A stretch of DNA of 23,262 bases from a virus. The stretch's first letter is position 1; each line of letters opens with the position of its first letter. The position numbers and the translations under genes are program-made. Shown here piece after piece: positions 11,320-20,526 of this stretch. Location of the stretch: positions 1-23,262 of IMG/VR virus record IMGVR_UViG_3300017783_000223. One strand, written 5' to 3'. Under the pieces are notes generated by a model that was given only the letters and a program-made list of their open reading frames with translations, was not told the DNA's origin and did no database searches.

Positions 11320-11741
11320 TCCCAGCTAACAAACTCTAACCAACCCTTTACTCCTGCCGCCCTGTCATTCTCCATACGGGTGGCTTCTGCTTTGTAATGC
11401 TTAGCTATTTCTTTAACTTCTTTGTGTGCTCGTTTAGCTAGGTCGATGTCTTCTGCTTTTTCTCTAATTAACTCAAGGGCGCCTTCGCCGTAGGTGTCAA
11501 TGTAGTGGCGCACAAAGTAATCTGGGCTACTGCCGAGTCGTTGATGGCATCCATAACAATGAGCAAATGCATTTAAGCCATCGTATCGCAGAGCCTTTTT
11601 AGCTCGACTAAAGTAATGTGAGCAGTGAAGACCTACACTATTCTCTTCGTATTGCTTGCCGCATCCTTGGCACTTGAATTCATTACGCATACGAACGCAT
11701 CTACTAAACCAGTGATCTGCCGCTGTTCTTTTTAGTTTCAT
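11316..11741 (-). CDS. ninG: NinG-like recombination protein (HNH-type zinc protein)
   Basis: 141 residues when started at ATG 11741, which overlaps the ninB stop (ATGA) and has AAGGATC upstream. An in-frame start at 11804 would run far into ninB. Cys24-x2-Cys27, Cys40-x-His42 and His61-Cys62-x2-Cys65-His66 form paired metal-binding knuckles around SHYFSRAKKALRYDGLNAFAHC. This is the pattern of lambda NinG/Rap, a Holliday-junction and branched-DNA endonuclease, and of related HNH proteins. The C-terminal half is a charged helix. Pairing with NinB supports the call. The gene ends tail-to-tail with the large virion gene. Confidence 0.75.
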   Translation of the reverse strand: MKLKRTAADHWFSRCVRMRNEFKCQGCGKQYEENSVGLHCSHYFSRAKKALRYDGLNAFAHCYGCHQRLGSSPDYFVRHYIDTYGEGALELIREKAEDIDLAKRAHKEVKEIAKHYKAEATRMENDRAAGVKGWLEFVSWD

Positions 11742-12163
11742 TGCAATTGATCCTTTAGTTGTTGAGGAAACGGCACATAGACTTGCTTGTTCTCTGAGAG
11801 CCACCTAGTTAGCACCTCAGCCGCTTCCGATAGTTGGATAGGGGTTAGCTTAGCTGTAGAGCTTTTGCCGTGCATGGCCTTTATAACAGGCTTGTAAAGC
11901 ATCTCCTTAACTAACACTTCAGTGAAGGGTATCTCAAGGTTATCACTGAACGGATGTCGCACCCAGCAACCAGCATCATTTAGCTCCTCAGCTATCCGCC
12001 TAAACCAGAGGTGCATTGCATTGTTCTGTCTGTCGCTACGCGTAGTGTCCTTGATGTAGTACAGGATCGTCTTGCCTTCCTGCCATTGATCGAGAACAAA
12101 GTTAATAAAGAAGTTAGCTTTGTCTTTGCTGTCTACTATCCAGCGGTGTGATGGATCTGTCAT
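11738..12163 (-). CDS. ninB: NinB-like recombination protein
   Basis: 141 residues. The TRSDRQNNAMHLWFRRIAEE segment (41-60) followed by WVRHPFS and a C-terminal helix with LTRWLSEN resembles the NinB family. Lambda NinB (Orf) binds SSB and ssDNA and substitutes for RecFOR in recombination. The start is ATG 12163 with AAAAAGGAGATCAA just upstream. It is translationally coupled to the NinG-like gene and lies downstream of the ATPase gene, separated from it by the iteron region. Other phages also combine NinB and NinG with an ERF protein, and one is encoded at 13672. Confidence 0.7.
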   Translation of the reverse strand: MTDPSHRWIVDSKDKANFFINFVLDQWQEGKTILYYIKDTTRSDRQNNAMHLWFRRIAEELNDAGCWVRHPFSDNLEIPFTEVLVKEMLYKPVIKAMHGKSSTAKLTPIQLSEAAEVLTRWLSENKQVYVPFPQQLKDQLQ

Positions 12164-12180
12164 TTGATCTCCTTTTTAGT

Positions 12181-12207
12181 TTGCCCAGTTTGCCCAGTTT
12201 GCCCAGC
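12181..12207 (+). repeat. 3 x 9-bp tandem repeat TTGCCCAGT
   Basis: Two exact copies and one with the last base changed (TTGCCCAGC), immediately upstream of the ninB ribosome-binding site on the minus strand. They read ACTGGGCAA on the minus strand, related to but inverted against the GGGCATTCT array on the right. Confidence 0.9.
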
Positions 12208-12272
12208 TGGCCTCTAATGCCCTAGTTTTACCCCCCTACTTGTCGCGCCAAGCCCCCTTAATGCGACTAAAT

Positions 12273-12300
12273 TTAGGGAAAAGAGGCCGCTTTTCCCTAA
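12273..12300. other. Perfect 11-bp hairpin
   Basis: TTAGGGAAAAG and CTTTTCCCTAA are perfect inverted repeats around the loop AGGCCG. No T-run follows on either strand, so a simple intrinsic terminator is unlikely. It sits near the centre of the facing iteron arrays, as single-strand or origin hairpins do. Confidence 0.8.
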
Positions 12301-12356
12301 CAACAGGGGGTCTAAATGTGGGCATTAGGGGCATTCTGGAGGTTTTGGGGCATTCT
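12301..12356 (+). repeat. 56-bp element, copy 1 (second copy at 20471-20526)
   Basis: Ungapped alignment with 20471-20526 gives 46 identities in 56 positions. The conserved core is GGGGTCTAAA, GGGCATTA and two GGGCATTCT units at the same spacing (9 and 19 bp) in both copies. This equal spacing implies a protein-binding array rather than chance. A third, inverted copy of the 22-bp core lies at 12215-12236. Confidence 0.8.
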
Positions 12357-12383
12357 GGGCATTCTGGGCATTCTGGGCATTCT
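12348..12383 (+). repeat. 4 x 9-bp tandem iterons GGGCATTCT
   Basis: Four exact tandem copies of GGGCATTCT end two bases before the stop codon of the ATPase gene. Single further copies are at 12329-12337, 20499-20507 and 20518-20526. A repeat period of 9 bp is shorter than one helical turn, as in some plasmid and phage binding arrays. Confidence 0.9.
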
Positions 12384-12385
12384 GA

Positions 12386-13525
12386 TTACATTGGTATCCA
12401 GCGGTAGTATTTCTTGCCGTGTGCGCCTCTGCGCTCTAGCTTTAGGTTGTTGCCCTTGAGCAACTCCATGCAGGTGCGAAGCATTTTCTTTGTCACGCCG
12501 TTTGGATTGATCTCGCTATCGTTGAGCATGTCAAACAAGTCTGCTTGAGAGTACAGTTTGTGCGCCTTCATCGAGCTACTTAGGAATATATACTCGTCTT
12601 CGTATTTAGCGATCGCTTTGCCAATCTTGATCTGTGCAGACTGTTTAGCTTTCATATCGCTGATGTCATCGGGACTCATGAATTCAACAGAGTCTACGGA
12701 TTCTTCGTAGCCCACTGTCTCGCTTGTTTGCTTGTACTTAAATCCACCCTCGAAGCTGATCTGGCTTCTATCTTTTTCATTGATTACTAACAACTCTTGG
12801 TGAAATGAAAACTTATCATTGAGGGGGTCGAGTCCAAACATGTTGTCGACGTCAGCCTTGAGGTCTCCAACGCCTTCAAATATAAGTCGGCCATCCATGC
12901 TTCGATGCTTGTTGCAATGCCCCAGCAGTACGACTGTGCCGCCTGCCGCCGCAAATTCTCTGAACACATGAAGCACATCTCGCATTTCACCTTTGTTCAT
13001 AACACCAACAAACTTCTTAAGCGTGTCACAAATAACAATCTTGCCGTCTGCCTCACCCTCTTCACGGATAGCGTTGAGTAGTTCAAGTGCTTGATTAGTA
13101 TTCCGAAGGTACGGGTCATTACTATTTGCCAGCGTAACCATTGTCATACCGTGGCGTTTGCCTAGCTTGGCCTTCTGCAAAGCACCTCTAGCTCCGTCAT
13201 CTTCATTGAAGTAGATAACATCAGAGCCTTTAATAAGGTTATTGCGGATAGATTGGAATAGATTGCCCAGAATCCATACGGTCTTACCAGCTCCTGAAGG
13301 GGCGTATACGAGCGTTACAGTTCCGGTGGTAATCATGCCGGGGATAACGTCTCTTTCTTTAGCCAGGCGCTGTTCAAGCTCTTCTATGCGGTCATTGAGT
13401 GCCGCACTGCGTAATCTGTCTAAGGCGGATCTCCCATTCTGCCCTGTTACAATAGGTTTAAGCATTGATGTTGGTGCTGTTATTTGGTTCTGCTCATCGC
13501 AGTATATTGACCACTCATCAGTCAT
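12386..13525 (-). CDS. RepA/DnaB-like replicative ATPase (AAA_25 type)
   Basis: 379 residues. ATG 13525 follows GAGGGACTGATAA. Walker A is APSGAGKT (75-82), a YFNEDD acidic motif lies at 105-110, and Walker B is KIVICD (162-167). A VVLLGHCNK strand-end motif (198-206) fits the RecA-fold RepA/RSF1010-type hexameric helicases and DnaB-like ATPases of phages. The region from about 310 to 379 resembles a winged helix (YSQADLFDMLND ... KLERRGAHGKKYYRW), which could bind origin DNA. It is followed by the facing iteron region, an attractive binding target. It probably unwinds DNA or loads replication or recombination proteins. No primase motif is visible. Confidence 0.75.
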   Translation of the reverse strand: MTDEWSIYCDEQNQITAPTSMLKPIVTGQNGRSALDRLRSAALNDRIEELEQRLAKERDVIPGMITTGTVTLVYAPSGAGKTVWILGNLFQSIRNNLIKGSDVIYFNEDDGARGALQKAKLGKRHGMTMVTLANSNDPYLRNTNQALELLNAIREEGEADGKIVICDTLKKFVGVMNKGEMRDVLHVFREFAAAGGTVVLLGHCNKHRSMDGRLIFEGVGDLKADVDNMFGLDPLNDKFSFHQELLVINEKDRSQISFEGGFKYKQTSETVGYEESVDSVEFMSPDDISDMKAKQSAQIKIGKAIAKYEDEYIFLSSSMKAHKLYSQADLFDMLNDSEINPNGVTKKMLRTCMELLKGNNLKLERRGAHGKKYYRWIPM

Positions 13526-14667: not shown

Positions 14668-14841
14668 ATGGCTGAATACGTTTACTACCGTGAACTGTTC
14701 GAGATCTTTAAGGCGTACACTACGCCGAAACTTATCCGCGTGCTGGAGTCTCAGGGTATCGAGTATCTAACCGATGCCAAGGGCAAGCCTTTTACTACGC
14801 GCTCTGCCATCGACGGTGCCCTCGCCAAGTCCGAGTCTTAA
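14668..14841 (+). CDS. DUF4224-like small protein
   Basis: 57 residues from ATG 14668, preceded by AGGAGAAAGTA. The sequence YYRELFEIFKAYTTPKLIRV followed by LESQGIEYLTDAKGKPFTTRSAI matches the general layout of DUF4224 proteins: a helix-turn-helix-like half, then G-I-x-Y...G-x-P-x-x-x-R-x-A. Such small phage proteins are often encoded beside integrases or excision genes, but none is visible here. It may be a small DNA-binding regulator. It is bracketed by terminators at 14630-14654 and 14867-14895, forming a separate short unit. Confidence 0.6.
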   Translation: MAEYVYYRELFEIFKAYTTPKLIRVLESQGIEYLTDAKGKPFTTRSAIDGALAKSES

Positions 14842-19733: not shown

Positions 19734-19843
19734 ACTTCATGAACAGCATGGATCAGAGGGGATCAGATTAGCTATGGCCGAACCGGATCATTTCCGGATG
19801 TGTCCTTTTCCGGTAATGATGCGGACTCGGACAAATCTGATGG

Positions 19844-19916
19844 TCAAGACAACCGAAAAAATCCCCAAGGATTTTTAGCTATCGGTTCTTGCGCCCGCTT
19901 TAGCGGGTGGTCTTGA
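19844..19916. other. Nested three-way junction with A/T-rich hairpin
   Basis: TCAAGAC (19844-19850) pairs with GTCTTGA (19910-19916). Inside, AACCGA (19851-19856) pairs with TCGGTT (19882-19887) around AAAAATCC-CCAA-GGATTTTT (19857-19876), and CCCGC-TTTA-GCGGG (19894-19907) forms the third arm. All stems are perfect. The A/T-rich hairpin ends in a T-run on both strands, so it could also act as a bidirectional terminator. Confidence 0.65.
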
Positions 19917-20284
19917 ACTGTTCCCCTCCCATGCTATTGACTGCACGCGCAACATAGGCGGGTGACGGTGCCCCTTGATGGAGCCGCTTGCGGCGGAGAC
20001 ATGGGGATACGAGGGTAGCGTGAACGGAGTGAGGGCCGAGCCGATAGGCGAGCCGAGTATAGTCAACCTCCTGTGAATAGCGCGCGTGCGCGAGCGGCTG
20101 TAGATACGGTTTAGGCGAGTAGCCGTGCCGAAGGGAATCCCCGCATAGGGGATTACCAAGGTAAACCGGAGCCTTTCAGCGAGCCTACGATGGTGGCATT
20201 GGCTCAGTAGATATCAGTGCGCGGTGGTTAACCTGTTAGCTAGTGGTAACCACTGCTTAGGGGTCCTTCACGGACACACACTCA

Positions 20285-20314
20285 TTGGCACCTCTAATCG
20301 TATATCCGTATATA
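20285..20314 (+). promoter_or_regulatory. Weak sigma70-type promoter candidate toward the terminase operon
   Basis: TTGGCA (20285-20290) with an 18-base spacer and TATATA (20309-20314) in an AT-rich island of the long noncoding region. Transcription would run right through the second iteron element to the nuclease and terminase genes. The match is moderate and the strand uncertain. Confidence 0.3.
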
Positions 20315-20470
20315 TATAGGTTCTACCTGTAGGGGATAACGTGGTATCTATCGAAACTTACTAGCATCCAGTTTAAACGATCCTGCGGAACCACCACCGG
20401 GGGGGAGAAACTACGACATCACCAACCTGGAGTTCCCACCCAGATACAAAAAAAGCGGATTTTGGAACCT

Positions 20471-20526
20471 CAACCCGGGGTCTAAACTTGGGCATTACGG
20501 GCATTCTGACCTTTTTCGGGCATTCT
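20471..20526 (+). repeat. 56-bp element, copy 2 (first copy at 12301-12356)
   Basis: 46 of 56 positions match copy 1 with no gaps, including GGGGTCTAAA, GGGCATTA (20490-20497) and GGGCATTCT at 20499-20507 and 20518-20526. The tandem array that follows copy 1 is absent here. Confidence 0.8.

Follow-up and report, generated by a model that had tools for sequence, protein, structure and literature searches.

Two sets of short repeats that face each other lie between an ATPase gene and a NinB-like gene of an uncultivated marine phage, which raises the question of what protein reads these repeats and what the site does. The window analyzed here, that is, the whole stretch of DNA, is the linear IMG/VR virus record IMGVR_UViG_3300017783_000223, 23,262 nt in length. 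The gene order on its minus strand is ATPase (12386-13525), the 222-base element, NinB-like and NinG-like, with the element occupying the whole gap from the ATPase stop codon to the NinB ribosome-binding site. ERF is encoded divergently on the other side of the locus and is followed by a protein that, judging from its DDIPW tail, is presumably SSB-like. A 57-aa protein encoded at 14668-14841 showed a weak excisionase-like profile match (5e-4), and no integrase was seen. Rfam and tRNA searches of the window returned no matches.

Structure of the intergenic element

The element and its neighbor on the NinB side comprise the following features:

11738-12163, minus strand: NinB-like gene, immediately past the element
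12180-12206, plus strand: right arm (NinB side), three tandem TTTGCCCAG iterons
12214-12222, plus strand: degenerate inner unit CTAATGCCC of the right arm, pairing with GGGCATTAG at 12320-12328 in the predicted fold
12273-12300, unstranded: perfect 11-bp hairpin with a 6-nt loop, at the element centre
12320-12337, minus strand: inner units of the left arm, the variant GGGCATTAG (12320-12328) and GGGCATTCT (12329-12337)
12348-12383, minus strand: left arm (ATPase side), four tandem units, AGAATGCCC / GGGCATTCT, adjoining the ATPase stop codon

A single 9-bp unit with the consensus WWTGCCCAG makes up both arrays, in opposite orientations. The longest run of identity at lag 9 spans 28 bases, whereas 5000 dinucleotide shuffles of this segment gave 13 at most, and no second tandem run of at least 16 was found anywhere in the window at lags 4-40. 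The word GGGCATTNNGGGCATTCT occurs 5 times against 0.01 expected, one copy lying 8 kb away, at 20490. The facing arrays are thus real and far outside chance, and the preliminary description, which had noted three TTTGCCCAG units facing four-plus-one GGGCATTCT units (the "plus one" being the inner unit at 12329-12337), is accurate as to their number and position. The inverted pair of 22-mers that it listed exists only as an imperfect match with gaps, between approximately 12210-12231 and 12311-12332.

The perfect hairpin that had been seen between the arrays is present as well, and no other perfect hairpin of 11 bp (loop 3-20) occurs in the window. It had been treated as a core part of the element; two relatives with ATPases 98-99% identical to that of the window (L004 and L008) lack it, so that it is a lineage-specific insert, and we ruled it out as the key element. 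Palindromes resembling this hairpin occur in L006, L013 and L075.

Conservation of the arrays in related phages

Relatives of the ATPase and NinB were retrieved from IMG/VR, and facing period-9 arrays were detected in each of the 84 distinct ATPase-to-NinB intervals; no relative was encountered that had both genes but lacked iterons, a finding that would have spoken against the origin proposed earlier. In most relatives, the arrays begin at the ATPase stop codon, and in the others, past an inserted small (cargo) gene; they finish near the start of the next gene, whichever gene that is. In the intervals of L009, L013-L020, L031, L034 and L098, varied small genes flank the array, which stays intergenic. 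Two ATPase-NinB loci of different clades, L085 and L039, are located about 36 kb apart in the same 58,241-base IMG/VR record, which therefore probably joins two phage genomes.

A blind scan of 2.9 million viral contigs (IMG/VR) for facing GCCC/GGGC arrays yielded 66 loci. The non-coding arrays among these adjoin a member of the ATPase family or its NinB partner, with one exception (L263), and the remaining loci, judged by eye from the sequence, resemble collagen-type coding repeats. The exception comes from an unrelated phage, in which facing 9-bp arrays of the GGGGCACTT type (L263:4719-4817) lie after the gene for a DUF5906/VapE-like helicase, overlapping a small ORF; this is possibly an independent case of the same layout. 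A tblastn search with the ATPase against 50,697 cultured-phage records produced no match, and bacterial and archaeal genomes contained a single partial match, in a gammaproteobacterial MAG. A profile scan aimed at more distant ATPases returned loci already known, and our literature search found no publication on this ATPase family with iterons.

The ATPase and its predicted winged helix

The gene that precedes the element encodes a protein of 379 aa, in which we distinguish the following parts:

12386-13525, minus strand: RecA-fold ATPase, the proposed iteron-binding initiator (Pfam AAA_25, 1.4e-10)
12389-12628, minus strand: C-terminal winged-helix domain by predicted fold, residues ~300-379
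12458-12490, minus strand: predicted recognition helix, residues 346-356, including residue 348 and the candidate type-determining residue 350 (Arg/Leu)

AAA_25 is the sole Pfam family that scored over its cut-off for the ATPase; the best PHROG match, 6357, has unknown function in that database, and there is also a weak Sak4-like profile match. A profile search of PDB sequences yielded no convincing relative. The GAGKT motif (Walker A) is invariant in the family, and the protein combines a RecA-fold core with a winged helix; no primase domain was found in it. Structural matches of the core are RadA (Z 11.7), T7 gp4 (11.5) and DnaB helicases (range Z 10-12), and also Rad51, all obtained with a less confident core model (mean pLDDT 64); the RecA fold is common to helicases and recombinases such as Rad51 and does not separate them. 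The C-terminus had been thought to look like a winged helix, and the AlphaFold2 model supports this (pLDDT ~90; 89.9 for the domain modeled alone), with matches in VIA-align to the winged helices of Zur, PadR and the MarR type at Z ~8. Residues 348 and 350 fall within helix 346-356 in the model.

Co-variation of array type with the winged helix

The arrays come in two types, with the core GCCC (G type) or CCCC/ACCC (C type). Types were called with an automatic phase finder and, because GGGG runs confused it and phasing failed for some elements, partly revised by eye. Among 48 relatives, all 33 of G type have Arg at ATPase residue 350, and all 15 of C type have Leu there. Positions 324, 331 and 368 likewise separate the two types. 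All outgroups have Arg350 and G-type sites, and because the combination of E368 with Arg350 is found in these G-type outgroups, residue 350 is the best candidate for the determinant. Two proteins, the ATPase and NinB, were compared for tracking of the array type: normalised information on type is 1.00 for four winged-helix columns and 0.38 for the best column of NinB, which does not track it. The repeats thus show the behavior expected of binding sites, and the adjacent ATPase is the protein that fits, as anticipated in the preliminary description; from the predicted fold together with the co-variation, we infer strongly that its winged helix binds the arrays, and consider this very probable.

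The array type changes 8 times by parsimony on the tree of the ATPase core (shuffled mean 11.0), 10 times on that of NinB (shuffled mean 12.9) and once on that of the winged helix (shuffled mean 12.8, minimum 8), all three being FastTree trees of short sequences with moderate supports. In six sister pairs of opposite type, identity is higher up to about residue 300 and falls across the winged helix and the element; it recovers at NinB in the pairs where NinB directly follows, L018/L015 having inserted genes there. The cleanest pair is L038/L039, in which DNA identity is mostly 95-100% over the ATPase core, 63-83% over the winged helix, 49-67% over the element and 98-100% from NinB onward, with other aligned stretches 86-98% alike. 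Nearly identical loci thus differ mostly in the winged helix and the arrays, which form a specificity cassette of about 400 bp that is swapped between related phages by recombination. The winged helix adjoins the main array, so hitchhiking alone could keep these two linked; it is insufficient, however, as adjacency does not explain the matching type of a distant arm described below.

A second, distant arm

The window contains one further set of units, located between the early and late operons:

20478-20526, plus strand: second single arm, a GGGGTCTAAACTT-like box followed by repeat units, in the order GGGCATTAC GGGCATTCT, 10 nt, GGGCATTCT

This arm is about 8-9 kb from the main element, and in all 14 genomes that have it, this arm and the main array are of one type, C in four (L047, L032, L034, L021) and G in ten. 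In L047 (C) and L036 (G), the flanks of the second arm are shared whereas the iterons differ. Given the distance, the match in type requires a reader acting in trans. The second arm is present in the clade of the window and, at a slightly different place, in a second clade, where, in our reading of the alignment, it appears to be followed by a conserved promoter-like motif, TTGTTTAAC...TATATATAGGATAGGGAGGG. A pattern scan for this arm missed many genomes, and the region was then read directly; by such reading, it was not seen in the examined members of the group comprising L011, L014-L018, L038 and L051, or in distant clades. The second arm is accordingly missing from many relatives, whereas the main element is present in all.

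Two other intergenic features were observed nearby. A short box (CCCACCCAGATACAAAAAAAG...) at 20431-20468, upstream of the late operon, recurs at 81-100% identity over 32-74 nt in many of the relatives retrieved for this region, some of which lack the second arm. The GC-rich intergenic stretch at 19800-20480 is 73-75% identical over ~700 nt in two relatives only (L173, L222). The region 19880-20480 was rejected as a structured RNA: its fold is no better than those of shuffles (z -0.3), and there is no Rfam match.

A probable replication origin and the alternatives

By analogy with known initiator systems, we consider the element to be a bipartite iteron site and most likely the replication origin of the phage. 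Tandem short direct repeats adjoin the gene of a replication-type protein, the arrangement by which iteron origins of the theta type are recognized. A near-complete 35.4-kb relative encodes portal, capsid, terminase, tail, exonuclease, ERF, NinB, NinG and the ATPase, and among the examined ORFs of at least 100 aa, we found no polymerase, primase or other helicase. GC skew was discarded as evidence on the origin, since across the window it seems to track the direction of the genes and is therefore uninformative.

Under the proposed mechanism, winged helices would bind the two facing arrays, with residue 350 setting the core base, and the bound RecA-fold motor might, by analogy, assemble as facing rings on the centre of 30-115 bp, where the inverted repeats could extrude or melt. 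The centre has a mean AT content of 45% over the 84 elements (52% in the window), and the AT-richest 40-mer near the main site reaches 70%, under the 99th percentile of the window (75%); no AT-rich unwinding element was found beside the repeats at the main site. Because the centre is not AT-rich, melting would need the motor or the inverted repeats. Host polymerase and primase would load next, as suggested by the apparent lack of either in the near-complete relative. The distant arm would serve as a secondary site for the ATPase, either auxiliary, like the separate site of P4, or regulatory. In a broader scheme, which we put forward tentatively as possible rather than probable, RecA-fold ATPases might recognize their own origin through an exchangeable winged helix, cassette swaps might change replicon identity, and the distant arm might link initiation to the late-transcription switch.

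The main rival to the origin is an operator role, alone or in addition. As an operator instead of an origin, the site would let the winged helix on the arrays control ninB/ninG and, via the distant arm, the late operon. The right arm directly adjoins the start of NinB, the second arm precedes the promoter-like motif in one clade, and the main site lacks an AT-rich unwinding element, all of which would suit such control. The left arm is, however, directed back at the 3' end of the ATPase gene, and a two-armed array ending the gene of a motor protein fits known initiator systems better (PMC7581432, PMC4234260). Moreover, the main element is found in all relatives and the second arm is not, and the near-complete relative showed no further initiator or helicase among the ORFs examined. 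We regard the operator, whether as the sole or as an added function, as unlikely.

Far less plausible is a structured RNA or single-stranded DNA hairpin (a terminator, antiterminator or processing site) between the co-directional genes, maintained by pairing of the arms. The fold of the element is very stable (z -6.0 as RNA, -6.8 as DNA), and the two arms are complementary at most core positions. However, pairing is rare at unit positions 1-2 (19% and 17% of elements have the same base there) even though they are A/T in ~90% or more of the units; the distant single arm has no partner and still switches type with the main array; the central stem is not conserved; and Rfam has no match. An equally improbable reading is a boundary of recombination or cargo insertion, that is, a gene-exchange repeat with the ATPase as the recombinase: relatives carry varied small genes on either side of the array, ERF, exonuclease, NinB and NinG are encoded, and the ATPase has a RecA fold, but the exchange borders fall outside the unit of winged helix and array, not within it, presence in 84/84 intervals suggests a required function, and a hotspot leaves the residue-350 code unexplained.

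With the element read as an origin, an uncharacterized phage ATPase family gains a testable role, together with a code for DNA recognition of which reciprocal variants occur in nature. That the binding domain has repeatedly been exchanged along with its sites points to replicon identity being under selection in free marine phages; in satellites, origin-directed nuclease attack exerts such selection (PMC8263062), and competition from cognate origin copies is an alternative (PMC4488673). A connection of replication to the control of late genes also becomes directly testable through the distant arm of matching type.

Comparison with known initiator systems

Several features of this locus have counterparts in characterized replicons. 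In SaPI, as outlined in PMC7581432 (citing Ubeda 2007), short iterons directly follow the helicase gene and the C-terminal domain of Rep recognizes the origin, and SCCmec Cch2 binds downstream of its own gene (PMC7581432). The position directly downstream of the motor gene is shared with the repeats described here, but the SaPI Rep and Cch2 helicases are DUF927 or D5/SF3-like, in contrast to the AAA_25 protein with a RecA fold, and the phage adds a second arm 8-9 kb away. In the RepA/ori system of PLE, satellites of Vibrio cholerae, the binding domain and the iterons co-vary and are swapped as a module, and only cognate pairs replicate (PMC8263062). The co-variation and modular exchange found here resemble this system, although PLE are satellites, not free phages, and RepA belongs to the RepA_N type, with an N-terminal binding domain and semi-palindromic iterons of ~30 bp.

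The pRN1 ORF904 protein and BPP-1-type phages have a helicase with a C-terminal winged helix and an essential stem-loop of ~100 nt downstream (PMC4234260). Their helicases are of SF3 and carry a primase domain, whereas the ATPase has neither by profile or fold, and the stem-loop of pRN1 is not built of iterons and is poorly conserved in sequence. Satellite phage P4 has a second repeat site, crr, located kilobases from its origin. The winged helix of the P4 alpha protein, a helicase, binds short origin repeats (PMC4234260). P4 differs in having a primase-helicase fusion, direct repeats and a helicase of another family. Lambda O is not known to have a motor domain. The iterons of the lambda origin are located within the O gene, next to an AT-rich tract (PMC7466680). 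Lambda thus shares with the present phage the placement of iterons within or beside the gene of the (here proposed) initiator, and differs in its AT-rich tract, as opposed to a centre that is not AT-rich. The layout is therefore ordinary in principle; what is new is the protein family, the exchange of the cassette in free phages and the distant matching arm.
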